The translations under genes and the position numbers were made by a program. From positions 44,402 through 108,401 of the forward strand of contig JANQJF010000119.1 in assembly GCA_028281765.1 (NCBI GenBank): a stretch of DNA of 64,000 nucleotides, read 5' to 3'. The notes under the pieces are model-generated. The model was not told where the DNA came from and did no database searches. It worked only from the letters and a program-made list of their open reading frames with translations. Origin of the DNA: Planctomycetota bacterium (GTDB lineage Bacteria > Planctomycetota > UBA1135 > UBA2386). This document shows, piece by piece, positions 5,935 through 61,858 of the stretch; position 1 is the first letter of the stretch, and every line of letters starts with the position of its first letter.

Positions 5935-6010
5935 GGGCAGGTAGCTCAGTTGGTAGAGCACAGCATTGAAAATGCTGGGGTCGGCGGTTCAAATCCGCCC
6001 CTGCCCACCA
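5935..6010 (+). tRNA. tRNA-Phe(GAA), CCA encoded
   Basis: GGGCAGGTAGCTCAGTTGGTAGAGCACAGCATTGAAAATGCTGGGGTCGGCGGTTCAAATCCGCCCCTGCCCACCA; acceptor, D, anticodon and T stems all pair. Confidence 0.95.
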
Positions 6011-7582: not shown

Positions 7583-8155
7583 TCACGGTTCTCTCCCGAG
7601 CGTCCGCTCATCCGTCGTTGCTCGCTTGATCGCGCCCGTCTGACGGGGCGTGTTCGCTGCTTGCTTCAAATCACGCACTGCCAGTTTCGATGTTGTGCGC
7701 GCTCGTCTGCGCGACGTGTCTTCTTCTTCATGTGTCGGTGCTATTTCCCAGTTCTCGTCTGAGTTGTCGCCCTGCCACTCGAGTTCCTTCGTGGTTCTGC
7801 CCACCTTCGGTGTGTTGATTCGTAGGGTGTCGTTGCACGTCGGTGGCGGCGTACTTCGGTACGTCGTGGTGTTTGTCGTCTTCCATTCGTGGGTGTTCTT
7901 CGTCACCGTGATGCGGATCCGTCCCATTCCTGCGACGAGTGTTGCGACGACGACTGCTATCGCGAATCCGAGCATCGGCAGAGCGAACACGCTGATGCCG
8001 ATAGCGCCGTAGGCGAGCACGGTGAGTCCTGCCACGGCACAGGCGATCGCGGCAGGCCCTGCCCCGGACGTCGCTGCTTCATCGTCATGCGTCCACCAGA
8101 GCACGGTGCCGAAGAGAAGCCCGCTGAGACCTGCGCCAGCATCAAGTGGTGTCAT
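7583..8155 (-). CDS. Membrane protein of unknown function
   Basis: 190 aa, N-terminal hydrophobic helices; overlaps the Hsp70 ORF by 4 nt. Confidence 0.6.
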   Translation of the reverse strand: MTPLDAGAGLSGLLFGTVLWWTHDDEAATSGAGPAAIACAVAGLTVLAYGAIGISVFALPMLGFAIAVVVATLVAGMGRIRITVTKNTHEWKTTNTTTYRSTPPPTCNDTLRINTPKVGRTTKELEWQGDNSDENWEIAPTHEEEDTSRRRARTTSKLAVRDLKQAANTPRQTGAIKRATTDERTLGREP

Positions 8156-10966: not shown

Positions 10967-11935
10967 TCACGATTCCCCCTCCCCATTCCCTTCCCCATTT
11001 CCTCCGCCTCCATCTGCTCCCGCTCCCTCCGCCTCCTCCTCTCTTTCCTGTTCTTCGTGTTCCGCTGCTGCGGTCACGACGTCGCCCAAGAACAGGAACG
11101 TCACCGTAGGAGACGAGGACTCAATCGCCGCTTGCAGGCGTGCTTTGAGCTTCTGCAAGAACTGACGACTATCGCTTGCGATGATAAGTTCGCTCAGACC
11201 ACGGACGCGCAGCGCTTTCTTCATTTGCTGCTCGTTCCATGAGAGTGATCCTGACAGGATGATCTCGACGCCGATGAAGGTGCCGTCTTCGTCGCGCCAT
11301 CCGGCATCGAAGCATTTGTCGCCAACCGTGCATTCGATCTTCGGACGAAGCCCCTGCCGTCGCGGCTCTCGCGTCACGGCGTGCGCGTAGAACCGATGGA
11401 CGAACTTGCCTTTCCCAGAAAACGTCATTGGTTCGGGCAAACCGCACGACACTAGGAATTTCGCCCCCTCTGCCAGCACTTCGAGGATCTGCGGTTGTCC
11501 GCCGGGGCCGCTTCTGACCAATCGGTGCGCGCGAACGAAGTTGACGCGTTCGAGCTCAAGGAACGCTCGCGTGGCTTTCCGAGGGCTCAATCCGAGACGG
11601 CGACTTACCGCTGTTTTGAACTGGTCTGGTTTGTTCGCTACTTCGACGAGTACGCGTTTCGCGTCATCCGACAACAACACCGCACCCTCACGTTCCTGAG
11701 TCGGCGGGCGTGGATCGCTCGTTTCGCTCCGGTTCGCGCTTCGTGCTGGCCCCTGCGATTCGGCTTGTTTCGCCCCGTTCGGCGTTTCCGTCGTTTCGTG
11801 CGTTTCGCCTGCTTCCATCATGACGTCGAGCGTCCCGATCAGCCGCTTCGCTCGTGTGTCGTAGACGTCGTCTTGCCGCTGCCTCCGTGTCATCAGCGCA
11901 CCTCGGGGAAACGTCCGAGGACGGGCTTCTTCCAT
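10967..11935 (-). CDS. Winged-helix protein with C-terminal PD-(D/E)XK-nuclease-like domain
   Basis: SDDAKRVLVEVANKPDQFKTAVSRRLGLSPRKATRAFLELERVNFV (wHTH) then CFDAGWRDEDGTFIGVEIILSGSLSWNEQQMKKAL (D...EXK-like); similar in layout to the C-terminus of the 44385..46472 protein. Confidence 0.5.
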   Translation of the reverse strand: MEEARPRTFPRGALMTRRQRQDDVYDTRAKRLIGTLDVMMEAGETHETTETPNGAKQAESQGPARSANRSETSDPRPPTQEREGAVLLSDDAKRVLVEVANKPDQFKTAVSRRLGLSPRKATRAFLELERVNFVRAHRLVRSGPGGQPQILEVLAEGAKFLVSCGLPEPMTFSGKGKFVHRFYAHAVTREPRRQGLRPKIECTVGDKCFDAGWRDEDGTFIGVEIILSGSLSWNEQQMKKALRVRGLSELIIASDSRQFLQKLKARLQAAIESSSPTVTFLFLGDVVTAAAEHEEQEREEEAEGAGADGGGGNGEGNGEGES

Positions 11936-13272
11936 GTTGCTCGTGAGAGCACGACTGCTTCTCCAGGCGTGAGTGTTGCCAGGCGTGCTGCTTGCGCGTC
12001 GGTGAGTAGCAAGTCGCGTCGGAGTTCTTCAACGTCTCCGCCGGAAGCGGAGCAGATTGCGATGAGGTCGCAGTTTGTTCGCAGCGCTGGACTGAGGAGC
12101 TCCCAGCTTTGTGAGGCTACGACGACGCCGAGTTTCTTGCTGCGAGCCCGCACACACAGGTCTGCCAGAGCATTCACTTCTTGCGCGTCGGTGTGGGCGG
12201 ATCCTCGTGCGTGGCTGAGCGCGTCGTCGAGGACGAAGAGCAGCTGCCGTGAACGCTCGATGTCGACGCGTGAGCGGTATTCGTAGGCCCACTGCAAACT
12301 GAGGCTGACCAGAAACTGGCTGACTTCATCACTCAGGCGGTCCGTTCGTATCACGATGCACTGCGCGTTTCGCTGCGCGTGGTGCCAGAAGTCGCTTCGA
12401 ACGCATTTCGCTGCGGCTGGTAGTTCTCGCTGTATCCCCTTCGCGACTGGTCCGACCGAGTCGCGGTGTTGCCAGTCCCGTGACCCGGGGCGCGCGTTCA
12501 GCCCTTCGAGTGTGCGTACGAGTTCGTTCCAACTCGGTGCTGTTCCCGGCGCGCGTGGTTGCTGCCAAAGCTTCTCGAGCACGCTGATCAGGAATCGTGT
12601 CGATGCAAAGAGTGAGAACGCCTTCTTGAGCACGCGCGCAAAGATGATGGTCCAGGCGTTGAACGGCACACCCGGCGGTGGCTCAAGAAGTGCCCACGGA
12701 ACCTCCTCGGCGTGAAGGACGACGAATGGTTGGTCGTCATGAGCGAACGTTTCGGAACTCCCAAACTCGCCGTGTTTCTGGTCCCAGATGCAGACACTCG
12801 CGCCGTGCCGCACGGCTGAAAGCACGACAAGACGCGTGAAGCTCGTTTTGCCGGAGCCCGTGGATCCGACTACCAGTGCGTTCCTGGCTAGGGCCGTGAG
12901 AGGCACCGAAAACACAGAACCGTTCGACAGTCGCACGAGCGGTATCAGCCCCGCTTCATCACTGAGGCGTGTTCCGGGTAGTGGTTCGTTCTCAAAGAAC
13001 GGGTTGTTCGCAAGAAGCCCGGCGTAGTGGTCTCGTGATAGCTCGCGCCCGAGATCCGTTTCTGCAGGGCTTGGCGTTCCGTTCTGTCGCGCAACCAAGC
13101 AGACCGCCGCTATCTGCCGCACTTCTGCCCGTCGTGCTTCGTCGTGCGCGATCGCCGCGAGTTCATCAACCGAGAACAAACGACCATTCCCCACGTACGC
13201 CGAGGCTTTCGCCCCGCTTCTTCCCCTCCCATGCCCATCGCGCCAATTCACGACGGCTCTCCTATCAGCCAC
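11893..13272 (-). CDS. HerA/FtsK-superfamily P-loop ATPase
   Basis: Walker A VVGSTGSGKTSFTRLVV; Walker B LLFVLDDALSHA; arginine/Q region VVVASQSWELLSPALRTNCD. Confidence 0.85.
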   Translation of the reverse strand: MADRRAVVNWRDGHGRGRSGAKASAYVGNGRLFSVDELAAIAHDEARRAEVRQIAAVCLVARQNGTPSPAETDLGRELSRDHYAGLLANNPFFENEPLPGTRLSDEAGLIPLVRLSNGSVFSVPLTALARNALVVGSTGSGKTSFTRLVVLSAVRHGASVCIWDQKHGEFGSSETFAHDDQPFVVLHAEEVPWALLEPPPGVPFNAWTIIFARVLKKAFSLFASTRFLISVLEKLWQQPRAPGTAPSWNELVRTLEGLNARPGSRDWQHRDSVGPVAKGIQRELPAAAKCVRSDFWHHAQRNAQCIVIRTDRLSDEVSQFLVSLSLQWAYEYRSRVDIERSRQLLFVLDDALSHARGSAHTDAQEVNALADLCVRARSKKLGVVVASQSWELLSPALRTNCDLIAICSASGGDVEELRRDLLLTDAQAARLATLTPGEAVVLSRATWKKPVLGRFPEVR

Positions 13273-36751: not shown

Positions 36752-37894
36752 TTGGGGACGCAACCTCGCCGAGTCGCACGTCGACCGGCGACCCAGAACT
36801 CACGAGAACCCAACGCGAGCAAGGACCAAGGCGTGCAAGAGGACCACTCCGAAACAGTGCCAACGGAGAGCGTGTTCGCTCGCCAAAGCAATCCTGCGGT
36901 CTTCGTCCGGCGCACCGCACCAACGCCACGCAACGCGTTCTCCACCTTCTGGAAGTTCGCCGCTGAACGCCAACAAGTCTATCTCAAGCGAGTTGCGGGG
37001 GAGCAGCCCCCATGGACTGAGGACACGATTCTGCGTACGTTCAAATTCACGAACGTCTACAGGGCGGCGGACCGAGTCAGTCAGTTCCTTATCAACGACG
37101 TGCAGCCGGCCTGCGGAGAGGACCCCGAGACCCTATTCCTCTCCACGATTCTGTTCAAGCTGTTCAATCGCATAGAAACGTGGAAGGCACTTATCCATTC
37201 GGACGGACCACCTGATCCTAGTGCGTTCACCCCCCACGTGTACGCGGAAATCCTGGAAGGAATCCGGGCGAAGCGTATGCCGATATATTCCGGGGCTTAC
37301 ATCATGCCGTCCGGCGGCCAATCTCGCCCGAAACACCTAATGCACCTTCAGCTACTGGTTTCTATGCTCAGAGATCGCCTGCCTTTCAAGGTCGCCGAAT
37401 CAGGCTCTCTCAGGGATTCCTACAATCTACTTCGCAGCTACCCATCCCTCGGCCCATTCCTTGCCTACCAATACGCAATCGACCTCAACTACTCAACCAT
37501 CACCTGTCACTCCGAAATGGAGTACATCGTACCCGGGCCAGGTGCCATCGACGGCATTTCGAAGTGCTTCGAATCCCTTGGCGACTACTCTCCCGCCGAC
37601 GCGATCCGCTGGACTACGGAGTCGCAGCGCACCAACTTCGAACGACAAGGATTAGAGTTCCCCGGTCTGTGGGGCAGACCATTGCAACTCATCGACGTGC
37701 AAAACCTGTTCTGTGAGGTCTCGAAGTACACTCGAGAAAGCCACCCCGATCTGCCCGGAACGTCACGCCGAACCCGAATAAAGCAGCGATTCAAGCCGAC
37801 CGGCCCACTACCGCTCCCTAGATTTCCTGCAGACTGGAATATCAACCATGCCGTCATGGCGCAGAATAGACCATCGAGCGCTGCTCCAGATTGA
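36752..37894 (+). CDS. Putative HMUDK/aGPT-Pplase-like helical protein (thymidine hypermodification family)
   Basis: FSTFWKFAAERQQVYLKRVAGEQPPWTEDTILRTFKFTNVYRAADRVSQFLINDV matches the remembered family pattern FwxFixERxxixxxRxxG.xxPWTxDxILxxyKFTNvYRxxDRxsqxLixxV. Start uncertain. Confidence 0.6.
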   Translation: MGTQPRRVARRPATQNSREPNASKDQGVQEDHSETVPTESVFARQSNPAVFVRRTAPTPRNAFSTFWKFAAERQQVYLKRVAGEQPPWTEDTILRTFKFTNVYRAADRVSQFLINDVQPACGEDPETLFLSTILFKLFNRIETWKALIHSDGPPDPSAFTPHVYAEILEGIRAKRMPIYSGAYIMPSGGQSRPKHLMHLQLLVSMLRDRLPFKVAESGSLRDSYNLLRSYPSLGPFLAYQYAIDLNYSTITCHSEMEYIVPGPGAIDGISKCFESLGDYSPADAIRWTTESQRTNFERQGLEFPGLWGRPLQLIDVQNLFCEVSKYTRESHPDLPGTSRRTRIKQRFKPTGPLPLPRFPADWNINHAVMAQNRPSSAAPD

Positions 37895-38924
37895 TGGTCA
37901 CGCGCCCCCCCTGGTTGGCTCTCAGCTTCCGAAACACGCTATACCCCGCCAGTATGGCCTCTTCCCACTGCCAGTGCGGGATGCTCGCTACTTCGTATCC
38001 GTCGACGAACTCCGAGATCATTTTGAGGAGATCGAAATCAACACGATCAAGTCCATCGAAGAAGCAGAGACGCTTCGCTCTCGCGTACACGATCGCAGAC
38101 ACAGCCTCCTCAATAATGATGGCGCGAGCACCATCCTCCGCCTCGTCTGCTCGAGGGTCGGACTTGCGTTTACACCGAACCAGAGCCCGAATCACTGGTG
38201 ACCATCCGAGATATGTGGCATGCGCCAGATGGAAAACATCGTGAAAGCGATAGAAGTCCGGATCTCGAATATTGTCGGTGAGACGATCCCCGAAATTCAG
38301 CCCATTGCACCGGAGCAACGTCGCTTTCCGATCGCCCTGGACAATTCCTACGAATTCTATCTCAAGTGTCCGAGGTAGCTGCTCGTACACACATAAGTCA
38401 TCGTCAAACAACGCGTGTGGACACTTTGTTTCCGGCCAACGACTCTTCGTCTTTCGTGTATTGAGTTCGGCGACATCCTCCAAAGACATCCCGCCTACGG
38501 CGGCAAGCTGCGCGATCGTGCGCCACAAGACCACGAGCACATCGGACCTGTCCTGAGCATGGTCGAGTCTCTGGATTAGATCTCCAACGGACGAGCCCAA
38601 GTGCAACGCGAGAGAAAGTAGATCGCTGCCGTCACACGGACCGCTCTCATCCAGGGAATGTGAATCTAGAAGCGACGGCGATGTAACATCTGACAGGCGA
38701 ACCAAGTACCAAAGGAAGTCACCGATCTCTTCCTTCATCTTGTTGCGATAGGCGGGGTAGGCCTGCTGCTCTCGCTGCTCCTTCTTGAATTCGGCCAGTA
38801 TGCCCCCTGCCTCGCCCATCAACCCCGCGGCGAGAAGCTCTACATGCCGAACGTGATTCTGTAGCCGGTCGGAGCCACCAGCTTTCTGACGAAAATCCTT
38901 CAACCATCGCGGACAGGTCATCAC
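37854..38924 (-). CDS. MazG-like nucleotide pyrophosphohydrolase with C-terminal extension
   Basis: GLMGEAGGILAEFKKEQ...KMKEEIGDFLWYLVRLSD (MazG ExxE/ExxD pattern). Confidence 0.75.
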   Translation of the reverse strand: MMTCPRWLKDFRQKAGGSDRLQNHVRHVELLAAGLMGEAGGILAEFKKEQREQQAYPAYRNKMKEEIGDFLWYLVRLSDVTSPSLLDSHSLDESGPCDGSDLLSLALHLGSSVGDLIQRLDHAQDRSDVLVVLWRTIAQLAAVGGMSLEDVAELNTRKTKSRWPETKCPHALFDDDLCVYEQLPRTLEIEFVGIVQGDRKATLLRCNGLNFGDRLTDNIRDPDFYRFHDVFHLAHATYLGWSPVIRALVRCKRKSDPRADEAEDGARAIIIEEAVSAIVYARAKRLCFFDGLDRVDFDLLKMISEFVDGYEVASIPHWQWEEAILAGYSVFRKLRANQGGRVTINLEQRSMVYSAP

Positions 38925-39679
38925 GCCATCTCCCTCAGATCTGCAACCAGCTCTTGCAGCCGCCTCTTTCCTCGCCCCGCGCTACAGAACGCGTATGTGG
39001 AGTGAACGACGAAGCTGCCAACACCAACGCCTACTTCGTGAGCTACACAAGCCTGCAGTCGTGCCAACCCCAGCATGTTACCGAGAACTTTGTATCGATA
39101 GTCATGACTGCGGTAGATTGCCGTCAAGTGCACCTGTTCTTGGAACAGCTTGAATGACAAGTGCGAAAGACATGGTCCGCCGCGCGTGAGCCTCCGATCA
39201 TTTGCGGTGTTGTAGAGTGGAAGGTCATACTCGCCCTCGGACACACCGAGTTCATAAGCTGACTTGAAGCCCCCATGACGGGAGGCCTCTCGCTTCATTT
39301 TCTTGATCAGCGTCTCCAGGGGATTGAACACACCCCCCTCCGCATCCCGTCGGCGAAGCAACCGGTGTGCGTAGGTACCCCATCTTGTAGCAATCGCGCC
39401 GTAGTCTTCGTCCGGATACTTTTCGAAGACACCTGAAAGGCCGCGCCGGGTGTATTCCCAACCCGGAAAGATCGTTTCGGCAACCGTATGCAGGGGAAAC
39501 TGATCTTCTTCGGCATAGAACTCGTCAACGCGATCCATCACATCCCTGGTCCGAGGACCATCAGACAGTGGCGAGTTTATCGCGAGAATGATATTGAGTT
39601 GAGTTTCGGCGTCTAAGAGGTATTCGGTCGCGTCCAACCAACCCTCAAGCCTCGTCTCCACTGAGAACAGTCTTGTCAC
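38921..39679 (-). CDS. Thymidylate-synthase-like protein
   Basis: GGPCLSHLSFKLFQEQVHLTAIYRSHDYRYKVLGNMLGLARLQACVAHEVGVGVGSFVVHSTYAF: TS-like PC nucleophile and RSxD segment. Confidence 0.7.
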   Translation of the reverse strand: MTRLFSVETRLEGWLDATEYLLDAETQLNIILAINSPLSDGPRTRDVMDRVDEFYAEEDQFPLHTVAETIFPGWEYTRRGLSGVFEKYPDEDYGAIATRWGTYAHRLLRRRDAEGGVFNPLETLIKKMKREASRHGGFKSAYELGVSEGEYDLPLYNTANDRRLTRGGPCLSHLSFKLFQEQVHLTAIYRSHDYRYKVLGNMLGLARLQACVAHEVGVGVGSFVVHSTYAFCSAGRGKRRLQELVADLREMA

Positions 39680-40308
39680 GGCGCAACCTCATGAGTCAAG
39701 ACCATCGCTTCGCGAAGATGCGCTCCCAAGAACGAATCGTCCAGCCACGCGTGCCCCGCGTCACCCCACAACGTGCCCCAACTGTTGCGGATGAGGAACA
39801 AGCGCCGCGCCTTTTCTGAACCCAGCCCAACTGCAACGACGGCATGAAGCCCCCGAACAGGACCGCTCGCAGACACAATCCAAGGCGATCTCACGTCGAA
39901 GAATGGATCCGGAATCGCTATGCCAAGCACAACCGTCGAGCCACTACGCAGCAAACCTTCGACCTCGTCGGGCTCTGCAGGCTTCGGCTCCGACGCGCGA
40001 TGGTAGGTGGCTACGGTGCTGTCGGGCGCCCAGCTCGGCACCGGCGTGACGACGTGATATGGGCAATCGGCCTCCAACGGCTGGCCTTGCTCATCAAGCG
40101 CTTTCGCAGTCGCCGCGAAGGACGCATCGTTGCCTGGGGCGCACCCTGTCGAGAAGAAGTGGAGATACTCTGGAGACAACTCGTCAGTTTCAACCCTCGC
40201 ACCCTGATGCGCGGTCGTGGCTGCGTGAGCCAAACAAGTCGGACGCTCTCTTTGGTCTCTCACGCACCCTACTCGACTTCGATGATCGACGGTGAGTACG
40301 ATGCTCAT
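39676..40308 (-). CDS. Papain-like (C1 family) cysteine peptidase
   Basis: VRDQRERPTCLAHAATTAHQ (Q...C), GPVRGLHAVVAVGLG (H), FLIRNSWGTLWGDAGHAWL (N). Confidence 0.85.
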   Translation of the reverse strand: MSIVLTVDHRSRVGCVRDQRERPTCLAHAATTAHQGARVETDELSPEYLHFFSTGCAPGNDASFAATAKALDEQGQPLEADCPYHVVTPVPSWAPDSTVATYHRASEPKPAEPDEVEGLLRSGSTVVLGIAIPDPFFDVRSPWIVSASGPVRGLHAVVAVGLGSEKARRLFLIRNSWGTLWGDAGHAWLDDSFLGAHLREAMVLTHEVAP

Positions 40309-41300
40309 GCCTCTGCCAGGGCTGCTTCTCGAAGACGACGAGGGAAGCCCCCGCGCTCCTTGCCATGGTTGTCGACCTTGATCCGGATCTCCTCGAGACG
40401 CTCCTGACTCCAACGTCGACGATGCAGAAAAAGAAGCTGGTGGACCCCGGCACTTTGAATTCTCAAGAACACCGTACGCCTCTGCAAACCTCCGTACGTA
40501 GCCTGCGCCTTGATCGATGCTGAAACCTCGGACACGATTTCTACGGACTCGCCCGCATCGACAAGCTCCCAAAGATAGCCTCCAGAAGCATTGTCCTGCA
40601 CCTGAACCGCGAAGAGGTCATCCGGGCCCGCCTCGAGACACGTGCCCGTGTCATTCTCGGTGAGGCTCCATACGGCGGCCCAGGGATTGGTTATGAGATC
40701 CTCGGGGGCGAGTAAACGCTTTAGATCCTTGACCTTCGCCTTCTGCAGACCTTTCGCCGAGTTGCTCGAAATCGCATTCTGCGCGACCAGGGCCCAAAGC
40801 GTTGCAACAAAACTCGTGCCTAGCCGAAGCGACAATTGATAGACAGTCTCGGGCTGCATCAACGCCTCCTTCGTCCAACCGTGCCGCCTAGCCGCCGCTA
40901 CGAGCAACTCCTTCGGTGCGAGCAACTCGGACGCGAAAGTGTCCGCTGCCAGTTCTTCCAACGGCCGGGACTTGGGTCCGTATCGACCCGAGAATCCGAT
41001 CGACTCGCTCGGATCAAAGCTTGTGCGGTGACCAAGAAGGACGTGACCAAGTTCGTGGGCCAACGTAAATCGCTGGATCGGCAAGTCCAGTTTGGTGGTA
41101 ACGAGGATTCCTCGTAGCTGATCGTCCACAGTTATGGATGCCCCCCAGAGACCGCCTAGAGGGGCGAATCGAAACGGAATCTCAAGCGCAAGGACCGCAC
41201 CGACGACATCGAAACTAGTACGCCGCGGATCCCGGAAACGCCGGGTTATGGTCGCTGCCTCAGCCACGGCGCGGAGGATCTCCTCACTTCGGCTTCTCAT
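40305..41300 (-). CDS. ImmA/IrrE-family metallopeptidase
   Basis: LPIQRFTLAHELGHVLLGH (HExxH) and ELAADTFASELLAP. Confidence 0.9.
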   Translation of the reverse strand: MRSRSEEILRAVAEAATITRRFRDPRRTSFDVVGAVLALEIPFRFAPLGGLWGASITVDDQLRGILVTTKLDLPIQRFTLAHELGHVLLGHRTSFDPSESIGFSGRYGPKSRPLEELAADTFASELLAPKELLVAAARRHGWTKEALMQPETVYQLSLRLGTSFVATLWALVAQNAISSNSAKGLQKAKVKDLKRLLAPEDLITNPWAAVWSLTENDTGTCLEAGPDDLFAVQVQDNASGGYLWELVDAGESVEIVSEVSASIKAQATYGGLQRRTVFLRIQSAGVHQLLFLHRRRWSQERLEEIRIKVDNHGKERGGFPRRLREAALAEA

Positions 41301-41644
41301 TCGTCCTGTCCAGCAGACCGTTGCCTCAGGAACTGAGCAAATCGAAGCACTTCCGATCGGTCCTCAGGAGAGAGCTTCGCAGCTGCCCGGGCAACCATGC
41401 TAATAGACTCCGACTCGAGAGGATCGGCGTCCTTGCTGGTCAAGTCGTCCATGTTTCGCTGGTATAGCCTAGACAGTTTCTGCAACTCCAGCGCGTCCAG
41501 CCGCCGCGATCCACTCTCTATCAGAGATATCGCAGATCGCGGGGTACCCAGAAACGAAGCCACGTCTTCTTGTGAGTACCCTGCGTACTCACGCGCTTCT
41601 CGCAACCGAGCGCCGAGAGCGCGACGATCAGCTTCCTCGGTCAC
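41297..41644 (-). CDS. XRE-family HTH regulator
   Basis: ARLREAREYAGYSQEDVASFLGTPRSAISLIESGSRRLDALELQKLSRLY. Confidence 0.9.
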   Translation of the reverse strand: MTEEADRRALGARLREAREYAGYSQEDVASFLGTPRSAISLIESGSRRLDALELQKLSRLYQRNMDDLTSKDADPLESESISMVARAAAKLSPEDRSEVLRFAQFLRQRSAGQDE

Positions 41645-42042
41645 GGCTCCTCCTTTCTACTCTGACGTTCAAGGGCGACCTGGACCATGCTCGGAACCAA
41701 GTCGCTTATCATGTCGTCGACATCGAAGTAGCCTCCCGCGCGAATCAGTCGCACGTCTAGCTTGATGCCAAGATGCTGCTCAAACACCGGAGAACTGCGC
41801 GCTACCGCTTTGGAGTCGAGCACAGGCATCGTGTCCCACAGGTCGGAGCCACCGGGAAGTCCTTCCGGCCCGCCCTCCACCAGCGCATCCCAGTCCGCCG
41901 ACTCCAGCTCAACCCAGGCACGAAGGTCTCGCTCGAGAGCATCTTCTAAGCCTTTTTGCGACAGGAGGTTGAGTTGCGTGAACATTCTGATGACGTCTGA
42001 ATATCGAACATGATACCCCTTCCGTGTTCGAAAGTCAAACAC
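41641..42042 (-). CDS. Unknown 133-aa protein
   Basis: Overlaps XRE by 4 nt and PPTase by 8 nt. Confidence 0.6.
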   Translation of the reverse strand: MFDFRTRKGYHVRYSDVIRMFTQLNLLSQKGLEDALERDLRAWVELESADWDALVEGGPEGLPGGSDLWDTMPVLDSKAVARSSPVFEQHLGIKLDVRLIRAGGYFDVDDMISDLVPSMVQVALERQSRKEEP

Positions 42043-42700
42043 CTCCAGGAGCGATGATCTCCGCCGAACTGCAGATCCACGGCAGTGGGACCGAACACCT
42101 GACCGGGATGACTAGCCCGCCGGGAACCTCTGCCGTTGCGGCGCGAGCCCCGTTGGACGGCCGCTCCCACGTCAATCTCACATCTTTGAACGCCAGACGC
42201 TGTCCACGGAGCGGATAGCAAGCCTTGAACACCGCCTCTTTGGCCGCAAGAGTCATCAGATGTGCCACGTTCTCCTCCGGCGGATCGAATGGAGCCTCTT
42301 CGTCTTCGGCAAACACCAATCCGTCGAGCTGACAACCATCGTCGGAACAGAACTCGACATCGATTCCGAGTGACAGCAGATTGCTGCGCGGAGCCACCGC
42401 GACGATGACTACCGTTCCCTTGTGCGTCACACTTCCCACGTACCCGTCAGGCCACAAGCGGTGACCTTCCTCAGAACGAGCCGGCACGTCGTCCGCTGGC
42501 GCACCCGCCCCTTCAAGCGCCGCAATCAACGTGCGGCGGACAGCGGCAGCCTTCGCCTCCGAAAAGACGCGACGTCGATCGACTCCTTGCACCGCCTGCG
42601 GTTTGGGTAACCAAGAGGCAAACGAACCTCCCGCAACGCAGGCACTCGGAAGAAGTGCACGCATCGACACAGCCGCCGGATGAGTATCGTCTATTCGCAT
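42035..42700 (-). CDS. 4'-phosphopantetheinyl transferase superfamily protein
   Basis: GYVGSVTHKGTVVIVAVAPRSNLLSLGIDVE ... MTLAAKEAVFKACYPLRGQRLAFKDVRLTW. Confidence 0.85.
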   Translation of the reverse strand: MRIDDTHPAAVSMRALLPSACVAGGSFASWLPKPQAVQGVDRRRVFSEAKAAAVRRTLIAALEGAGAPADDVPARSEEGHRLWPDGYVGSVTHKGTVVIVAVAPRSNLLSLGIDVEFCSDDGCQLDGLVFAEDEEAPFDPPEENVAHLMTLAAKEAVFKACYPLRGQRLAFKDVRLTWERPSNGARAATAEVPGGLVIPVRCSVPLPWICSSAEIIAPGGV

Positions 42701-42952: not shown

Positions 42953-44227
42953 TTAGGAACGAGTGAACTCGCTGCACGCGACAATATTGAAGGCCTCCAC
43001 GGACATGTCGCCGCCGACAACATCATAACAAAGTGCGTGAGTCAGCTTCCCCGACCGCGGCCTGCTCCAAAGATCTACGACGACTTGGAAGGGCGGCTGC
43101 ACCCCCTCTATCCACTCGAACAATCGACCCCAACCCAGTCCGTCGAGCGAAGGCACGCAAGGCTCCCTAATGCCAAGTACGGTTGGGTGCAGCCTGGAGT
43201 TGTGGTATGCAACTCGAATGCCCAGGTCGAGAGCGACACGATCGAGCTCGCCGCCAGACAGACTCTGGAGCGGAAGGAACGGAGACCGAGGCCCAACACG
43301 CACTTTGAGATCGCCGCCGCCGAGTTCGTAGCAAAACCCAAAGAGAGACCCGTCGCCGGGCACTCCCTCGAGACAGGCCACGAGCTCCTCACCCGAAAGC
43401 GCGAAGCAGCGCATCAGACCATCGATAGCACCCCGCTCGAAACTCTCGGCCTGAAGCCGAGGGATCTCCACCAAGTCTATGGACGGAGAGAAGACAGGAG
43501 TGCGCACATCGTCGACCCACATCTCTGCACGGCCTCGATTGCAAACCACCGCAATACTACTGCCATCCGAGCGACGGAGAATCAGCTCACCACGCGGCGC
43601 AAACGTTCGGTCAGACGCATGAACAACCAACTGGATTCCGTGGCCGGATTGCCCACTTTCAGGATCGCGACAGCCCTCATCAGTGATTGGCTGGCGACAT
43701 ACCAAGAAGGCATCTCGATCGCTGAAGACGCGCAACATGTCGCTGAGGCCACAGCTGAGCTTGCTTGTTCCAGCACACACGGTCAACGCACCGAACCGAA
43801 CACAAGCTCGACCCTGCACTCCACCAAAGTCAACGATGCTGAGCTCAAGAACGGGTCGTTCTGACTTGTCAGAAGGAGTCGCATGGTCGGTCCCGGGCGT
43901 CGACTCGGACTGCTCTTTCCATGATCTGAGCAATTCGGGCGGGAAAGCAGCCACATTCTCAGGCTTGTCCACACGATCTGCGCAGATCGCACACAGCCAA
44001 ATCCCGTTACTCGGCGCCGAGCGATCTTGAGGGGACAGAGAATCATCGTATCGGGGCCCCAGGCTTGAAGCCGCTGTGATGTGACATGCCTTTCCCGTGC
44101 GACTGGATTTCTCTGCGACCGCGTCCGACGGACCAACCGTGGAACGACCACACTCTGGGCGCGCACAGCGGTATCCCGCGCGTTCAGCCAACGCCCGTTT
44201 GGTGGCCAGTGTGAATTCGTGACGCAT
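42953..44227 (-). CDS. HNH-like nuclease fused to degenerate ABC/SMC-like ATPase
   Basis: GYRCARPECGRSTVGPS...CHITAASSLGPRYDDSLSPQDRSAPSNGIWLCAICADRVD..LLRSWK (HNH family) then LQSLSGGELDRVALDLG (ABC signature) with eroded Walker A/B. Confidence 0.7.
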   Translation of the reverse strand: MRHEFTLATKRALAERAGYRCARPECGRSTVGPSDAVAEKSSRTGKACHITAASSLGPRYDDSLSPQDRSAPSNGIWLCAICADRVDKPENVAAFPPELLRSWKEQSESTPGTDHATPSDKSERPVLELSIVDFGGVQGRACVRFGALTVCAGTSKLSCGLSDMLRVFSDRDAFLVCRQPITDEGCRDPESGQSGHGIQLVVHASDRTFAPRGELILRRSDGSSIAVVCNRGRAEMWVDDVRTPVFSPSIDLVEIPRLQAESFERGAIDGLMRCFALSGEELVACLEGVPGDGSLFGFCYELGGGDLKVRVGPRSPFLPLQSLSGGELDRVALDLGIRVAYHNSRLHPTVLGIREPCVPSLDGLGWGRLFEWIEGVQPPFQVVVDLWSRPRSGKLTHALCYDVVGGDMSVEAFNIVACSEFTRS

Positions 44228-44384: not shown

Positions 44385-46472
44385 TCAACACGACGTGATG
44401 CCCTCATCTCGCAGCATCACACTCACGTGTTGCCCCTCCAGCAAACCCGCCTCTGCGAGCTTCTTCTCGACCCTCCTTCGTGCCTTCTCGTTCGTCGCGA
44501 CCACGTTCACCCGGTTTCCTGACTCCAGCGCTTTCTGCACGTTCGAGACCACGTCAGATTTCCCGGATTCGACTTCAACACCCACTCGCTTGCCCCCTCG
44601 CTCTGCCAGCACGTCAACCCAACCCCCGACTCGCGGCGCTTCAACCATCACCTTCCAGCCGTCCTTCCGCAGCCGTTCTGCCCAGGCCAGCTTCCAGTAC
44701 TCGTGCTCAACGGATTCTTGCCCGCTCGAACGCTTCCTCTCGTGGCCCGCGACCGCGCCACCCTCACCGCTCGCGCCTCGAGTCCCGGACCGAATGGTCG
44801 GCAGCAGCACGCGCTTACGCGAGCGCCCGATCTCGACCATCCCTGTTCGCAACATCCCTGCCGCGACAGCATCATGCTTGACGCGCTCGCCCTTGCTTGC
44901 TCCCCATTCAAGTCGCTCGTACCGTGCGGCGACCCCGTCAGTGGGATGCTCCGTGCAGTCTCGCACGAGTGCTAGAACCTCCGCTGACGGACCATCTGAT
45001 GGCGGAAAGTGTCCGAAAGTGCCGGATCCTGACTCCCCAGCCCTTCTCGAGCCGGAAAGTGACGTATTCCGCCGTGGCAGGGTTTTTCGCGCGATGTAGT
45101 CGCGCAGCTTCTCGTCTGTCATCGCCCCTTTCTTCACGGGGACGTGGTCGAACTGCACGAGGAACGGCTCCTTCCACCGATCCGCGAGTTTCACGATGCC
45201 TTGTCCGACCGGGAGCCGCGAGAGATGTCGCCTATCTTCATCCTGGAGTCCTGAGAGCACCTGTCCGCGCGCGATGTCTGAAGGTTCCCGCAGGCTGAAC
45301 GTCACGGTCGCGTAGAGGTTACCGAGCGCCGCCTGGCTGATCAGGCTCGGGTGCTGGTCTACCACGACGAATCCGATCCCGAGTTCGCGTCCTTGCCGGA
45401 GCATCTGCCCCATCACGGACTCACTCGCCCGCCCGGATTTCTTGAAGAGCAAGTGATGTGCTTCTTCCACGATCACGACGAGCCGCAGTTGCTCGCGTTT
45501 CTCTTGGTTCAGTTGGGCGAAGAACAGCCACTGCATGAGTATCGGGACCAAGAACTGCTTCGCGTTGTCGCTGAGCGTGTCGAGTTCGATCACCGTGCTT
45601 TGCCTCAAGAGCCGTCGCGTCATCTCCTGTTGGTCGCGCACGGTCACGGCGTGGCTTGGCAGACTGAACGATAGGCTCTGCAGTGCCCGAACCGCGGTCA
45701 CCTTCCATGATGCGGCCCGGCCCGTCACTTCTCGTGCATCCAACGCTTCCACGACATCGTCGATCACTGGCCACAACTTCGCGCCACACCGCTCGTAGAG
45801 CTCGCTGAGCACCTGCTGCAGGAGGCTCTTGGCGCCATCGCCGAGCGTGTAGGCAGCAGCGAGTGCGTCTACAAATCGCAGGATGTGCGCTCGTGTCTCC
45901 AGCCCTGGCGGCGGGATGAGCGGGTTGAACACGAACGGCGACAGCGAGCGTCCTGGCGTGTAGACGTTGATCTGTCGCGCAAGCAGTGGCAGCAGATGCC
46001 GGGCGGTTCGCTTCCAATCAAGAAACAGAAAGGGGATACCTCGCGCGGAGAGTTCTTGGACGAGTCGCAGGCACGCATTCGTCTTCCCAGCCCCGCTCCT
46101 GCCGAACAGCCCGAGCCCTTGCAGAAGTTCTCCCCGACTCAAACCGAATCGGTAGGTATACCGCGGGTATACCACGCGCCCGAGACTCAGCGGGCCTTTG
46201 CCGATTGTTGCCGGTGGTGGTGGGAGCAGGAGTTGATGCTCCCAACCGGCCCCGAAGACGCATCGCGCCCGTTCTTGAATGTGTTTCTCGAGCAGGGAAC
46301 GGCGGTGCTCAGAAAGAAGCGGCAAAGATGCCCGCCACTGCTGCACCTCCCGCGGCATGAGCGGCGCGAGCCTACGCAGCGCTCGCTCGACCGTCATCGC
46401 CTCCTCCGAGTGCGTCCCAGTCCGCGAGGTGTTCAGCGAGTGCGCGTTGCAGTTGTGAAACCGCGTCTTCAT
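44385..46472 (-). CDS. HerA/VirB4-like ATPase with C-terminal PD-(D/E)XK-like nuclease domain
   Basis: GLFGRSGAGKTNACLRLV, LRLVVIVEEAHHLLF; C-term SVEHEYWKLAWAERLRKDGWKVMVEAPRVGGWVDVLAERGGKRVGVEVESGKSDVVSNVQKAL. Confidence 0.85.
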   Translation of the reverse strand: MKTRFHNCNAHSLNTSRTGTHSEEAMTVERALRRLAPLMPREVQQWRASLPLLSEHRRSLLEKHIQERARCVFGAGWEHQLLLPPPPATIGKGPLSLGRVVYPRYTYRFGLSRGELLQGLGLFGRSGAGKTNACLRLVQELSARGIPFLFLDWKRTARHLLPLLARQINVYTPGRSLSPFVFNPLIPPPGLETRAHILRFVDALAAAYTLGDGAKSLLQQVLSELYERCGAKLWPVIDDVVEALDAREVTGRAASWKVTAVRALQSLSFSLPSHAVTVRDQQEMTRRLLRQSTVIELDTLSDNAKQFLVPILMQWLFFAQLNQEKREQLRLVVIVEEAHHLLFKKSGRASESVMGQMLRQGRELGIGFVVVDQHPSLISQAALGNLYATVTFSLREPSDIARGQVLSGLQDEDRRHLSRLPVGQGIVKLADRWKEPFLVQFDHVPVKKGAMTDEKLRDYIARKTLPRRNTSLSGSRRAGESGSGTFGHFPPSDGPSAEVLALVRDCTEHPTDGVAARYERLEWGASKGERVKHDAVAAGMLRTGMVEIGRSRKRVLLPTIRSGTRGASGEGGAVAGHERKRSSGQESVEHEYWKLAWAERLRKDGWKVMVEAPRVGGWVDVLAERGGKRVGVEVESGKSDVVSNVQKALESGNRVNVVATNEKARRRVEKKLAEAGLLEGQHVSVMLRDEGITSC

Positions 46473-46782: not shown

Positions 46783-46922
46783 GAAAAATGCAGTGAGACT
46801 GGGCTGAAGAGCAACGTCACCGATGGGTCGGGCGACACCGAGAAACCCACCTACAGCCGATGCCACGGCGGGAACTAGTCCACAATCGCGCGCACGACCG
46901 AGTTGAGGCGATATCAACCCTC

Positions 46923-48365
46923 ATGGAGCTAACCGCTGAGACAATCGCCGCTATCCTCGGCCTGGCAACCGCAGCGCTTTCGACAACCATAGTATTCCTG
47001 CTCGTCCGAGGTCACCGACTTCGCCGCCAGTACGGGAAGATCATCGATGTCGATCGAGAAGTCGCGGTCCGCCGCAAGGAAACCGACCGCATCGAGTCCC
47101 GCTGTCGGAAGCTGGCTCAACAGGAGGAGCTTCTCCGTGAGTCGCTCGAGGAGAAGCGGCAGAAGTGGGAGCACCAAGCGCAAGCACGACAGAAGGCGCT
47201 GCAAGCCGACTACGCGGGGAAGCGCACCCTGTACGACGAGCTCCTTCGAAGCATCGCTTCAGCAGAACAGTCCCTCGACCTCCAGAGTTACGGGGTGTAC
47301 GAGCCGTACTTCGACTTCGACACGCCGCAGGATTACAAGGAACGGCTCGGAGGGGTTCGGCAGCTTCAGAAACAGATGGTGCGCGAAAAGACTGCCGCGA
47401 CCTGCTCAACCACGTGGTCCGTGGACGGCAGCAAGCGAGAGGGCCAGAAGATGACGAATCGGACCATCAAGATGATGTTGCGCGCATTTCATGGCGAGTG
47501 TGACGCAGCGATCAGCCGTGTTCGCTGGAACAACGCTGTGAGCCTCGAAGACCGGATCACTCGCTCCTTCCATGCGATCAACAAGATGGGTGAACCTCAC
47601 CACGCCGAGATATCACCTGAATACCTCGAGCTGAAGATCGATGAGCTGCATCTGGCGCACGAGTACGCGGAGAAGCGCCAGCTCGAGAAGGAAGAACAAC
47701 GAGAACTCCGCGAGCAGATGCGCGAAGAAGAATGCGCGAGAAAGGAACTGGAGAAGGCGATCACCACCGCTCAAGCAGAGGAAGACAGATACGAGCGAGC
47801 TCTTGAGAAGGCACGCCAAGAAGTCGGAGAGCAAGCATCGGCAGAACTGCAGCGCCTACAGCAACTTCTCGACGAAGCTCACGAACGCCGGGAACGAGCA
47901 ATCGCACGCGCCCAACTCACCCGGTCAGGACACGTATACGTAATCTCGAACATCGGATCATTCGGCGAAGACGTCTACAAGATCGGAATGACACGCCGAT
48001 TGGAGCCCATGGACCGAGTCAGGGAGTTGGGCGACGCATCGGTACCCTTCCCCTTCGACGTGCACGCGATGATGTTCTCCGAAGACGCCCCAGGGCTCGA
48101 GAAAGCGATCCACCGAGCCCTCCAAGACCAGCAGGTGAACCGAGTCAACTCGCGCAAAGAGTTCTTCCGCGTCACCCTGGACGACATCCAACGTGCCGCT
48201 GTTGAGCACGGATCCACAGCGGAATTCACCAGAGTAGCCGAGGCAAGGCAGTTCCGAGAGTCGGCTGCGCTGCAAGCTCGTGACCAAGAGATCGATCGCC
48301 AACAGCAACAGAGCGCACACGAGTTCCCGGCGAGCCTGGAGATGGCAGTCAACACCGCCCCTTAG
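46923..48365 (+). CDS. TM + coiled coil + DUF4041-like + GIY-YIG (T5orf172/Mug113-type) protein
   Basis: N-terminal TM; YGVYEPYFDFDTPQDYKERLGGVRQLQKQMV; SGHVYVISNIGSFGEDVYKIGMTRRLEPMDRVRELGDASVPFPFDVHAMMFSEDAPGLEKAIHRAL. Confidence 0.85.
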   Translation: MELTAETIAAILGLATAALSTTIVFLLVRGHRLRRQYGKIIDVDREVAVRRKETDRIESRCRKLAQQEELLRESLEEKRQKWEHQAQARQKALQADYAGKRTLYDELLRSIASAEQSLDLQSYGVYEPYFDFDTPQDYKERLGGVRQLQKQMVREKTAATCSTTWSVDGSKREGQKMTNRTIKMMLRAFHGECDAAISRVRWNNAVSLEDRITRSFHAINKMGEPHHAEISPEYLELKIDELHLAHEYAEKRQLEKEEQRELREQMREEECARKELEKAITTAQAEEDRYERALEKARQEVGEQASAELQRLQQLLDEAHERRERAIARAQLTRSGHVYVISNIGSFGEDVYKIGMTRRLEPMDRVRELGDASVPFPFDVHAMMFSEDAPGLEKAIHRALQDQQVNRVNSRKEFFRVTLDDIQRAAVEHGSTAEFTRVAEARQFRESAALQARDQEIDRQQQQSAHEFPASLEMAVNTAP

Positions 48366-49601: not shown

Positions 49602-49791
49602 ATAGGTGCGCCACTTCAGGCTGCTGCAAGAGCAATGAGCTTGCCATCATCGCATCGAACTAGCAAGCGGAACACCTTGCCTTCGTCTTCAATGCGCAAT
49701 GCGGGGAGGGTCGGCGCTGCCAAGCTGTTTCACCCCATCCCAACCGAATGATGGCGACGCTTATCAATGCTCTGTGACTCCACGGATCAGC

Positions 49792-51114
49792 ATGGCACGA
49801 GACGATATATATGGAAACAGGTCGAAGTACGAGCGGCGCATGGACCGACTCGACAGCCTGCTGCTACCACCTGGATCGCCTGGGGTCTCTCCACAAAGAA
49901 AGTACTACTGCCGGAACCCTGCGAACCTGCAGTATTTCGGGATGCTCGCCCGGATTCTTGCCGCGAACGGTAACAGCTACATCAACCGCCTTCGGCGCAT
50001 GGACACACTTCTCTTTATTGTATCTCACACAGACAAAGACCTGAGAGAGTGCCGCCGGGATGACATCGACGAGATCGTGGCGTGCGCGCACGCGGTTTTC
50101 GATTCACCGAAGACCAAGCGGTGCTTCTTTCGCTCGATGAAGCAGACGTGGCGCCAGCTCTTCCCGGAACGCGACGAGCACGAACGCGTTGACGATACAA
50201 TCGTGCCTTACGTAGTTCGCCATGTCTCCTGCCATGTGGATAGGAGCCAGGACCGACTGCGCGATGACAAGCTCACGGTTGAAGAGTTCTTGCGCATCGT
50301 CAATTTCTTCTCCGCGGACCTGCAGACTCAGGCATACATCACGCTGGCACTCGAGTCCTTGGGGCGACCGCAGGAGCTCTGCTACCGCACCATCGGTGAT
50401 GTGGAGCTACACGACGGCTACGCGAAAGTCTGGGTGAGCTCGCACGGCAAGGAAGGAACAAGATACCTGCAATGTGTCGATTCCTACCCCTACCTCATTC
50501 GCTGGTTCGAGCTGCATCCCTGCAAGACCGACAAGAGCGCGCCCCTCTTCTTCTCTGGTGGCGATCCACATCGCCAGATGACGCCACACGTCATCAACAA
50601 GCGACTTCGGCGGGCATGCAGAGTCCTCCGGATCGACAAGCAGGTAACGGGATACTCTCTCAAGCGCGTCGGTGTCACGTTTCGACGATTGCGCGGTGAG
50701 TCAGACGTCGAAATCCAGCATGCGGCAGGGTGGACCAGCACACAGCAGCTCAAGACCTACGACCTCTCCAACGCCGACGACGCCTTCCAACGCAAGCTCT
50801 CACGGCGTGGACTTGCCGGATCTCAACAAGCAGACGCAGACCAGGCGCTGAAGACAAGACCGTGTGTCTGCGGCGGCATGATCGGATTCGCTGATGCCAT
50901 CTGTCGGCGATGCAAGCGCCCAACGAACCCACGAAACGAACTGCGAAGGGACGAGGAAACAAAGGAGCAAGACACGAAAGCGCGCCAACTGCTCACAGCC
51001 GCTCTCGAGGAGCCTCGACTAGCCAAGATCTTGGAAGAGGTTCTTAGATCGAGTCGACAGCGCGACGATCGAGACGAAGGCACAGCAACTCCTCCAGCCG
51101 TGAAGAAGCCCTGA
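49792..51114 (+). CDS. Tyrosine recombinase with C-terminal zinc-ribbon-like motif
   Basis: LESLGRPQELCYRTIGDV, VTGYSLKRVGVTFRRLRGESDVEIQHAAGWTSTQQLKTYDL; PCVCGGMIGFADAICRRCKRP. Confidence 0.8.
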   Translation: MARDDIYGNRSKYERRMDRLDSLLLPPGSPGVSPQRKYYCRNPANLQYFGMLARILAANGNSYINRLRRMDTLLFIVSHTDKDLRECRRDDIDEIVACAHAVFDSPKTKRCFFRSMKQTWRQLFPERDEHERVDDTIVPYVVRHVSCHVDRSQDRLRDDKLTVEEFLRIVNFFSADLQTQAYITLALESLGRPQELCYRTIGDVELHDGYAKVWVSSHGKEGTRYLQCVDSYPYLIRWFELHPCKTDKSAPLFFSGGDPHRQMTPHVINKRLRRACRVLRIDKQVTGYSLKRVGVTFRRLRGESDVEIQHAAGWTSTQQLKTYDLSNADDAFQRKLSRRGLAGSQQADADQALKTRPCVCGGMIGFADAICRRCKRPTNPRNELRRDEETKEQDTKARQLLTAALEEPRLAKILEEVLRSSRQRDDRDEGTATPPAVKKP

Positions 51115-60374: not shown

Positions 60375-61511
60375 TCATCCCAGCTCTTTCGCGAATACCT
60401 CACCGAGCGGCTCCAACGCCTCGTCCACGAGTCCCCGGTAGAACGTGTACTCCTTGCCGATGTAGTGTGACGCACTCACTCTGAGCGTGCTGGTTCGTGA
60501 GCTGTGTCCGAGTAGTCGGTCGATGATCAGCGCGTCTACTCCTCCGGCTTGCAGCAGTGTCGCGTAGGTTCGTCGCAGTCGCCGAAACGAGAACCCTGGC
60601 ACTCGGCCGGAGACCCTCCTTCCAAGCGTCTTCATCTGGTTCAGGCTCGCTCTCACCCCACTCTGTGTCGGGAACATCGGTCCCGATTCGCGCTGCCGAC
60701 GTGTGAACTCTGGCAGGAGCACTGCCGGGATCGGCTGCGGTCGCAGTGACTGACTGTTCTTCGTCTTCGTGATGTGCACGAATCGCTCTTCTTGGTCGAA
60801 GTCCTCCCAGTTGAGCCCTTCCAGCTCCATCACCCTCAGCCCGAGCCCGAGGAATCCGTGGAGCATCCAGATGACGTAGTCGCGCTCACCGCGATGCGCG
60901 CTGTCTCTGATCACCTTCACCAGTGAGCAAAGCTCCTTGATCGAGTAGACCTCGATCGGCGTGCTCTTGTCCTGTGGCAGCGTGAAGTTCACGAAGGGAG
61001 AGCGACTGATCCATCCTTCACGCACCGCGTAGTTGAAGAAGGTGCTGACGTAGCGCAGGTAGCGTGCGATCGAAGTCGGGTGAAGCGCGCGTTCTTCATC
61101 ACCGAGTGTTCGCTCGAAGTCGCCGATGTCCTGCTTCGTGATGTCCCGAAGATCTCGGTCTCCAACCAGTTCGCGGAACTCACTGAGAACGCGCTTCTTG
61201 TCCTTCAGGTAGGCGGGCGTGTTTCGCTGAAAACGCAGATAGTCAGAAATCGCCTCACCGAGAAGAACGCCCGACCCAGTCGGAACGACCTGCAGCGCGC
61301 ATGCCTGCTCAAGCGTTGACTGATACCGATCTCTGAGTCTCGTGACATCGGAGCGCGTGATCGGGCCCGTTCTTGCGAGTGGAACGGCGAGTTCTTGGAA
61401 CCGCGCTCGTGTTGCCGTGAGCTGTTTCCACTTGCCCGATGCCGGGTCCTTGATCGCGAACTTCCAGCCCTTGCCGTGCTGGTAGATGCCTGTCGTTCTT
61501 CGTCGTGCCAT
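60375..61511 (-). CDS. Tyrosine recombinase/integrase
   Basis: MARRRTTGIYQHGKGWKFAIKDPASGKWK; HGFLGLGLRVMELEGLNWEDF, FSFRRLRRTYATLLQAGGVDALIIDRLLGHSS. The longer ORF to 61805 runs through the tRNA fragment. Confidence 0.9.
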   Translation of the reverse strand: MARRRTTGIYQHGKGWKFAIKDPASGKWKQLTATRARFQELAVPLARTGPITRSDVTRLRDRYQSTLEQACALQVVPTGSGVLLGEAISDYLRFQRNTPAYLKDKKRVLSEFRELVGDRDLRDITKQDIGDFERTLGDEERALHPTSIARYLRYVSTFFNYAVREGWISRSPFVNFTLPQDKSTPIEVYSIKELCSLVKVIRDSAHRGERDYVIWMLHGFLGLGLRVMELEGLNWEDFDQEERFVHITKTKNSQSLRPQPIPAVLLPEFTRRQRESGPMFPTQSGVRASLNQMKTLGRRVSGRVPGFSFRRLRRTYATLLQAGGVDALIIDRLLGHSSRTSTLRVSASHYIGKEYTFYRGLVDEALEPLGEVFAKELG

Positions 61512-61679
61512 GTCAGAAACCAGGTGGTCCGCGCGCGGCCTTGCGTGACGCAACAGCCGCGGTTTTCTGACATTTCTTCTGACACGAGGGTGCCGAACAC
61601 CATCCACGGGTTCGACGCCAACCTCGATCAGCCGACGCAACTCATGACGCTTCAGCGACATGTGCGTACAGAAAAGTAT

Positions 61680-61725
61680 CGGAGCGAGAGGATTTGAACC
61701 TCCGACCCCCTGCGTGCCATGCAAG
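61680..61725 (-). tRNA. tRNA 3'-half fragment, Ala(GGC)-like anticodon loop
   Basis: Reverse complement CTTGC-ATGGCAC-GCAGG-GGGTC-GGAGGTTCAAATCCTCTCGCTCCG; no 5' half adjacent. Confidence 0.7.
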
Positions 61726-61858
61726 TGATTGCTTGTAGCATCCCGTGCAGGGAGCGACCACCGTGCTATTCGTGACGGGCGAGAAGCTGGACAACCAGAG
61801 GGCAACTGCCGTCACAAAAACGAACTTGATCATGAGTTTTCCTTTCCGACTCGACACA

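Follow-up and report, generated by a model that had tools for sequence, protein, structure and literature searches.

A conserved operon joining pyrimidine-type enzymes to a chagasin-linked papain-like peptidase: a candidate anti-phage system

Results

Organization of the operon

We analysed a stretch of 64,000 nucleotides from a Planctomycetota bacterium (GenBank assembly GCA_028281765.1, contig JANQJF010000119.1, positions 44,402 to 108,401; hereafter the window), in which seven minus-strand genes form an operon at 42700-37854. In order of transcription, they encode a 4'-phosphopantetheinyl transferase (PPTase), an acyl carrier protein (ACP), an XRE-family regulator, an M78 metallopeptidase, a papain-like C1 peptidase, a thymidylate-synthase-like (TS-like) protein and a MazG_C protein (Table 1). 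Six-frame translation recovered all open reading frames (ORFs) at the coordinates given in an initial annotation of this DNA, with coding bias in frame, and the junctions were read directly from the sequence. The PPTase and ACP genes overlap by 8 nt, and each of the five junctions that follow (ACP/XRE, XRE/M78, M78/C1, C1/TS and TS/MazG) is a 4-nt overlap, GTGA or ATGA. On the plus strand, a gene for an HMUDK_hel-domain protein converges on the MazG_C gene and overlaps it by 41 bp. The series of seven overlapping genes and the convergent overlap of about 41 bp described in the initial annotation were therefore both confirmed, while two of its gene starts were revised. The most likely start of the C1 peptidase is the ATG at 40308, which forms an ATGA with the M78 stop codon and gives 210 residues, and not the ORF start at 40572. 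For the HMUDK_hel gene, whose conserved part starts near 36905, the GTG at 36872 is likely a better start than the TTG at 36752. The annotation listed the 133-residue product, here read as an ACP, as unknown and did not mention the chagasin domain on the ImmA-like protein. A scan against Rfam gave no match inside the operon, and a promoter scan gave scores not above those of shuffled sequences.

Table 1 Features of the window. Coordinates are positions in the window. E-values are from the profile or structure searches named.
Feature	Coordinates	Strand	Evidence or remark
HMUDK_hel-domain protein, no P-loop	36872..37894 (ORF 36752-37894)	+	PF18723 E=5e-92
MazG + MazG_C protein, predicted metal-dependent nucleotide hydrolase	37854..38924	-	PF18722 7e-76, PF03819 3e-7
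Thymidylate-synthase-fold protein (predicted)	38921..39679	-	TS Pfam 2e-4; AF2/Foldseek
Papain-like C1 peptidase, 210 aa, no prodomain	39676..40308	-	C1 Pfam 5e-10; cathepsins E=3e-23
M78 (ImmA/IrrE/CapP-like) Zn-peptidase + C-terminal chagasin I42 domain	40305..41300	-	M78 2e-12, Inhibitor_I42 4e-7
XRE-family regulator, CapH-like	41297..41644	-	HTH_3 7e-12; PADLOC capH 3e-13
Acyl carrier protein (predicted), 133 aa	41641..42042	-	Profile matches to PDB ACPs from E=7e-5; Ser77 invariant
Sfp/AcpS-type PPTase	42035..42700	-	PF17837 2e-6, PF01648 1e-4
HNH-type N-terminal domain (PDC-M68A, SAVED-HNH-like), C-terminal half unannotated	42953-44227	-	Just upstream of PPTase
HerA-like ATPase with extra C-terminal region	44385-46472	-	
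PD-Lambda-1 defence gene (DUF4041 + T5orf172/MUG113)	46860-48365	+	E=5e-165; few kb from operon
Tyrosine integrases	49699-51114, 60375-61805		
tRNA-Phe	5935-6010		At GC drop
Hsp70-like protein	8152-9648	-	Inside putative island
Second, partial HerA-like copy	11893-13272	-	About 270 aa match, E=3e-122; 30 kb from first copy

Conservation and distribution

A scan of GTDB genomes with a TS-like profile returned 361 relatives, of which the best 80 were taken with their flanks, together with plasmid loci (individual loci are given L numbers below). Neighbours were counted within 7 kb of the TS-like gene in the 66 loci whose flanks reach 5 kb or more in both directions. ACP was found in 62/66 of these loci, XRE and M78 in 63/66 each, and the chagasin (I42) domain and the C1 peptidase in 61/66 each. 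The order ACP-XRE-M78·chagasin-C1-TS-like is nearly always kept, and at four junctions the start codon lies at most 20 nt from the previous stop in 79/84, 87/87 (XRE-M78), 85/86 and 77/87 cases. Comparison of the members' distance matrices gave correlations of 0.68-0.85 (permutation p 0.001). Among the bacterial hosts are Pseudomonadota, Acidobacteriota, Myxococcota, Planctomycetota, Verrucomicrobiota, Nitrospinota and Bdellovibrionota. In archaea the operon is carried by a Thermoplasmata metagenome-assembled genome and by a complete plasmid from an isolate, Haloarcula marina.

Since the fetched loci had been selected by TS similarity, the searches were repeated starting from other members. 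Among 72,556 plasmids, the TS-like, M78-I42 and C1 profiles returned 20, 19 and 19 records, respectively, of which 16 were common to all three. The expected pairwise overlap is 0.005 (log10 p -58 to -68, where close relatives are not independent). Chance is excluded because independent plasmid searches return nearly the same records. A search of 777 genomes with an M78 profile gave nine loci, among them the window and two others already known, and a TS-like gene was adjacent in 9/9. The initial annotation had proposed a candidate system in which TS-like, MazG-like and HMUDK-type proteins are tied to a pair of peptidases, an XRE regulator and a PPTase, and had asked whether the genes are conserved together. 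The domains and the shared neighbourhood in distant lineages bear this proposal out. The prevalence is about 1-2% of genomes, with many copies on conjugative plasmids; a DNA search of E. coli genomes gave no copy. In one record labelled Arthrobacter (L041), the module is almost the same as in Sphingomonas, which puts the label in doubt or may reflect contamination.

The protease half

The M78 protein has two parts. A 36-sequence M78-I42 profile matched CapP (5e-7) and IrrE in the PDB over its N-terminal region, and amoebiasin-2 (1e-12) and chagasin (1e-6) over its C-terminal region, where Pfam also places the inhibitor domain. In the 36 sequences the zinc site HELGH plus E116 is invariant, as are G241, W244, G270 and W297 of the I42 domain, and the three inhibitor loops are present. 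Papain-like C1 peptidases have chagasin (I42) as their classic inhibitor, and the adjoining gene encodes such a peptidase, whose profile matches cathepsins and whose catalytic set Gln53, Cys59, His189 and Asn209 is invariant in 38 sequences. In 75 loci, the catalytic Cys lies a median of 69 nt past the M78 stop, typically about 19-28 codons, so that in nearly all loci measured the usual prodomain has no room. A prodomain, typical of the papain family but not strictly defining it, is not present here. PADLOC models recognise only two proteins of the operon, namely XRE (capH and other XRE models) and M78 (capP, 8e-16, and other M78 models).

The chagasin domain and the C1 peptidase are both present in 61/66 loci and both absent in 5/66, with zero discordant loci. 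In the nine loci of the M78-profile set the corresponding counts are 7/9 and 2/9, again with zero discordant, and the C1 and M78-I42 distance matrices correlate with r=0.85. As far as sequences can tell, such strict co-occurrence marks a pair of inhibitor and enzyme. Four loci in which both are missing (L020, L021, L133 and L134) consist of XRE-M78-TS-HMUDK_hel with MazG_C or a dCTP deaminase; in L020 and L021 most of the MazG half of the MazG_C protein is missing. Locus L135 has the rearranged order TS-AcpS-XRE-M78/I42-C1-MazG_C followed by a convergent HMUDK_hel gene, and its chagasin domain is divergent.

Together with the conjugative plasmids, the strict pairing could also point to a toxin-antitoxin addiction module that stabilises plasmids or islands, with C1 as the toxin, M78-chagasin as the antitoxin and XRE as the autoregulator. 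We consider this decidedly unlikely, given that it would leave the conserved TS-like, ACP, MazG_C and HMUDK_hel or uracil-DNA-glycosylase (UDG) genes unexplained and that some loci keep TS-like and HMUDK_hel without the C1 pair.

TS-like and MazG_C proteins

The AlphaFold (AF2) model of the TS-like protein (pLDDT 89.1) gave 392 PDB matches with E<=1e-3 in Foldseek, and the matches listed are TS-superfamily enzymes, namely TS, MilA and phage dCMP hydroxylase-type enzymes. Profile searches conflicted, a 42-sequence profile giving no PDB sequence match and a 10-sequence profile giving one. Because the fold search matches TS enzymes despite this conflict, we take the identity as settled, and the protein is predicted from its model to have the TS fold, as the initial annotation had supposed. 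The nucleophile Cys170, Arg190 and the uracil-binding Asn201 are invariant. The canonical RSxD set that binds the dUMP phosphate in ThyA is incomplete, with variable Ser and Asp (RSHD, RNHF, RSHY). In the MazG_C protein, the HDxxH, D and EE residues are invariant in 60 relatives. Neither protein has a match in 50,697 phage records, and a MazG_C scan of IMG/VR viral contigs gave no relative. One Rhizobium plasmid has, close to the operon, a separate gene for a thymidylate synthase (L011:3416-4375; Pfam 3e-17) in addition to a TS-like gene, which appears broken.

HMUDK_hel and its exchange with UDG

The model of the HMUDK_hel protein is confident (pLDDT 94.5), and Foldseek found no significant PDB match for it. 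The only listed matches above a template-modelling (TM) score of 0.3 are helix-hairpin-helix (HhH) 8-oxoguanine (OGG) glycosylases, which are non-significant (TM 0.48-0.49, E>1). The initial annotation had likened this protein to the 5-hydroxymethyldeoxyuridine (5-hmdU) DNA kinase family, and the domain match and the model agree with the family. By itself, however, the protein is not a kinase: the Walker A motif is missing from the window protein and from 46/48 relatives, which makes the database name misleading here. Elsewhere, related neighbourhoods contain dTMP-kinase-like genes, which hints at a kinase partner for HMUDK_hel. In two loci (L053:10696-12612 and L090:6959-8776), HMUDK_hel and a Walker A (P-loop) region occur in a single ORF.

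Across the 66 loci, HMUDK_hel is the DNA-base partner in 36 and UDG in 29, and no locus has both. The remaining locus (L044) has neither inside 7 kb, with HMUDK_hel just beyond. On the TS tree, 7 exchanges between HMUDK_hel and UDG are needed, and the starred branches force at least 5. Since two unrelated families replace each other in the same neighbourhood, they probably do related jobs. UDG-like motifs are invariant in the UDG copies, and a UDG relative compared with the PDB by sequence gave no match; the window operon has no UDG.

The HMUDK_hel family occurs in 486 phage records, with 28-38% identity to phage proteins, some of which are annotated as alpha-glutamyl-putrescinyl-thymine pyrophosphorylase (aGPT-PPlase). 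This likeness, and the resemblance of the TS fold to the pyrimidine hydroxymethylase MilA, would suit a pathway of chromosomal self-marking, in which the TS-like protein makes a 5-substituted dUMP, HMUDK_hel and ACP help to elaborate this product in host DNA, with acyl or amino groups that ACP and PPTase could supply, and the proteases do no more than regulate expression or punish unmodified DNA. However, UDG, which would attack such bases, replaces HMUDK_hel in about half of the loci, the window HMUDK_hel has no P-loop kinase, and phage records contain neither TS-like nor MazG_C. We regard self-marking as unlikely.

ACP and PPTase

From its profile matches in the PDB, the 133-residue protein is a predicted ACP, with the phosphopantetheine serine lying in a near-invariant Asp-Ser motif. 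An ACP with such an invariant serine explains the presence of a PPTase in the operon. The PPTase, which the initial annotation counted among the partners, is not universal: it is present in 30/36 HMUDK_hel loci and in 3/29 UDG loci, so that the UDG version would depend on a host PPTase. MilA makes a nucleoside antibiotic intermediate, and an ACP with a dedicated PPTase beside a MilA-like TS fold could be read as a small nucleoside natural-product pathway. In the annotated neighbourhoods inspected there was no recurring ketosynthase, adenylation, transport or resistance gene, and the conserved XRE-M78-C1 proteases do not fit such a pathway, which we find hardly probable at all.

Genomic context

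The window copy sits in a lower-GC region beside tRNA-Phe, and the tRNA together with two tyrosine integrases likely marks one or more integrated islands. A PD-Lambda-1 defence gene and two HerA-like genes lie in the same window (Table 1), and the HNH-type gene next to the PPTase is possibly a separate defence gene. In L009, L010 and L016, a MazG_C + UDG pair occurs without ACP-XRE-M78-C1-TS, among TIR genes on plasmids, and in L010 SIR2 and a CBASS (cyclic-oligonucleotide-based anti-phage signalling system) phospholipase are also nearby. This pair may serve other effectors. The locus flanks were compared in PADLOC with ORFs selected by third-position GC (GC3), after an unselected set had proved to include antisense ORFs from GC-rich DNA. 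Restriction-modification, SIR2 and HerA matches were found in the flanks and not in same-genome controls, with total counts per set that are not resolvable.

The island, the defence neighbours and the patchy prevalence fit a defence or conflict system without proving one. The partners UDG, dCTP deaminase, MazG and dTMP kinase would also suit a stress response of nucleotide pools or DNA repair, in which uracil or aberrant thymine in DNA is corrected and damage activates M78; CapP-like M78 proteins do respond to DNA damage. A patchy, mobile and plasmid-borne distribution in about 1-2% of genomes argues against this, as does an unprotected papain-like peptidase, which is no repair enzyme; such a response seems to us highly unlikely.

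Discussion

We give an even chance to the reading that this is a mobile, anti-phage operon in which pyrimidine or base chemistry is coupled to a switch of the CapH/CapP kind, and that this switch sets a papain-like executioner free. By analogy with CapH/CapP, a trigger would activate M78, which would cut XRE and de-repress the operon. The prodomain-less C1 peptidase would be restrained in trans by the chagasin domain on M78. Since inhibitor and M78 are on the same chain, activation of M78 could also free C1: the inhibitor would be cut or displaced and the released peptidase would cause growth arrest. The pyrimidine arm would comprise a C5-pyrimidine enzyme of TS fold, MazG-MazG_C, either alone or together with dCTP deaminase and dTMP kinase, and HMUDK_hel or UDG as the protein acting on DNA bases. 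It may make, remove or sense an abnormal uracil or thymine derivative, most likely arising from infection by altered-pyrimidine phages, and would either produce the trigger or attack phage DNA. The PPTase would pantetheinylate the ACP, and the group that the ACP bears for this arm is probably an acyl or aminoacyl group. Action on abnormal uracil or thymine in phage DNA or nucleotide pools is favoured over self-modification because of the HMUDK_hel/UDG exchange and because the DefensePredictor study reports validation of TS and 5-hmdU-kinase domains in E. coli defence (PMC13092281).

Several points weigh against this anti-phage reading. The loci without C1 and chagasin retain TS, HMUDK_hel and mostly XRE-M78, which implies that proteolytic execution is dispensable in some versions. 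The enrichment of defence genes in the flanks is only suggestive. The ACP is the least understood component of the system. Finally, we do not claim HMUDK_hel as an HhH-GPD glycosylase, for which hhalign gave scores no better than those of unrelated controls.

A bolder form of the anti-phage reading, which we hold tentatively and think rather unlikely, is a new immune class in bacteria and archaea. In this class a single protein, M78-chagasin, would act as the protease that responds to the signal and would also hold the executioner in check until it releases it as a prodomain-less cathepsin-like peptidase, and an ACP-assisted modification of uracil nucleotides, read in DNA by HMUDK_hel or UDG, would trigger or arm the response. 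If the anti-phage reading is right, chagasin-controlled cathepsin-like proteases, so far best known from eukaryotes and parasites, would have a parallel in a linked execution switch of prokaryotic conflict, and the use of ACP and PPTase in such a system would be new chemistry. The large and mostly unexplored bacterial HMUDK_hel/aGPT-PPlase, MazG_C and TS-like families would also gain a testable function, because HMUDK_hel is exchangeable with UDG.

Comparison with known systems

In the DefensePredictor study (PMC13092281, Science 2026), TS, 5-hmdU kinase, dNMP kinase and NMAD domains belong to validated or predicted systems. Validation in E. coli phage defence covers TS and 5-hmdU kinase; MazG, MazG-C and aGPT-PPlase are predictions only. 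The TS, HMUDK-type and MazG-C families are shared with our operon, and the domain list of the predicted systems also has UDG. The main text mentions no chagasin or C1 peptidase, and no ACP or XRE-M78 module was found in it. Brig1 and Brig3 are DNA-glycosylase defences in which a UDG-superfamily protein acts against phages with modified pyrimidines, Brig1 alone and Brig3 with BapA (PMC11078745, PMC13160076). The UDG variant of our operon resembles them in its invariant UDG-like motifs, whereas here UDG is part of a multi-gene arrangement, can be replaced by HMUDK_hel and is absent from the window copy.

The likeness to CapH/CapP of CBASS is the adjacent XRE-M78 gene pair, and the difference is that M78 here carries a fused chagasin domain and has a C1 peptidase as its partner. 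No CD-NTase match was found among the operon and adjacent proteins of the window that were scanned, so the locus does not classify as CBASS. With chagasin and amoebiasin the I42 domain shares the fold, the three loops (GYxW, GG and RPW-like) and an adjoining C1 enzyme. Classical chagasins are free inhibitors, and known C1 enzymes have prodomains and are in many cases secreted; here, in contrast, the inhibitor is a domain of a metallopeptidase fusion, and a prodomain is missing from the C1 enzyme. Phage thymidine hypermodification (dUMP hydroxymethylase, 5-HMUDK and aGPT-PPlase) likewise combines the HMUDK_hel family with a TS-fold enzyme, but our operon is not phage-encoded and its HMUDK_hel protein has no kinase domain. 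A literature search, covering neither the DefensePredictor supplements nor two older papers, found no paper in which chagasin or ACP is connected to phage defence as it is here. Parts of the nucleotide half may have been mentioned briefly before, whereas no description of the protease/chagasin/ACP half was found. We regard the architecture, built from known parts, as new, and its function is a prediction.

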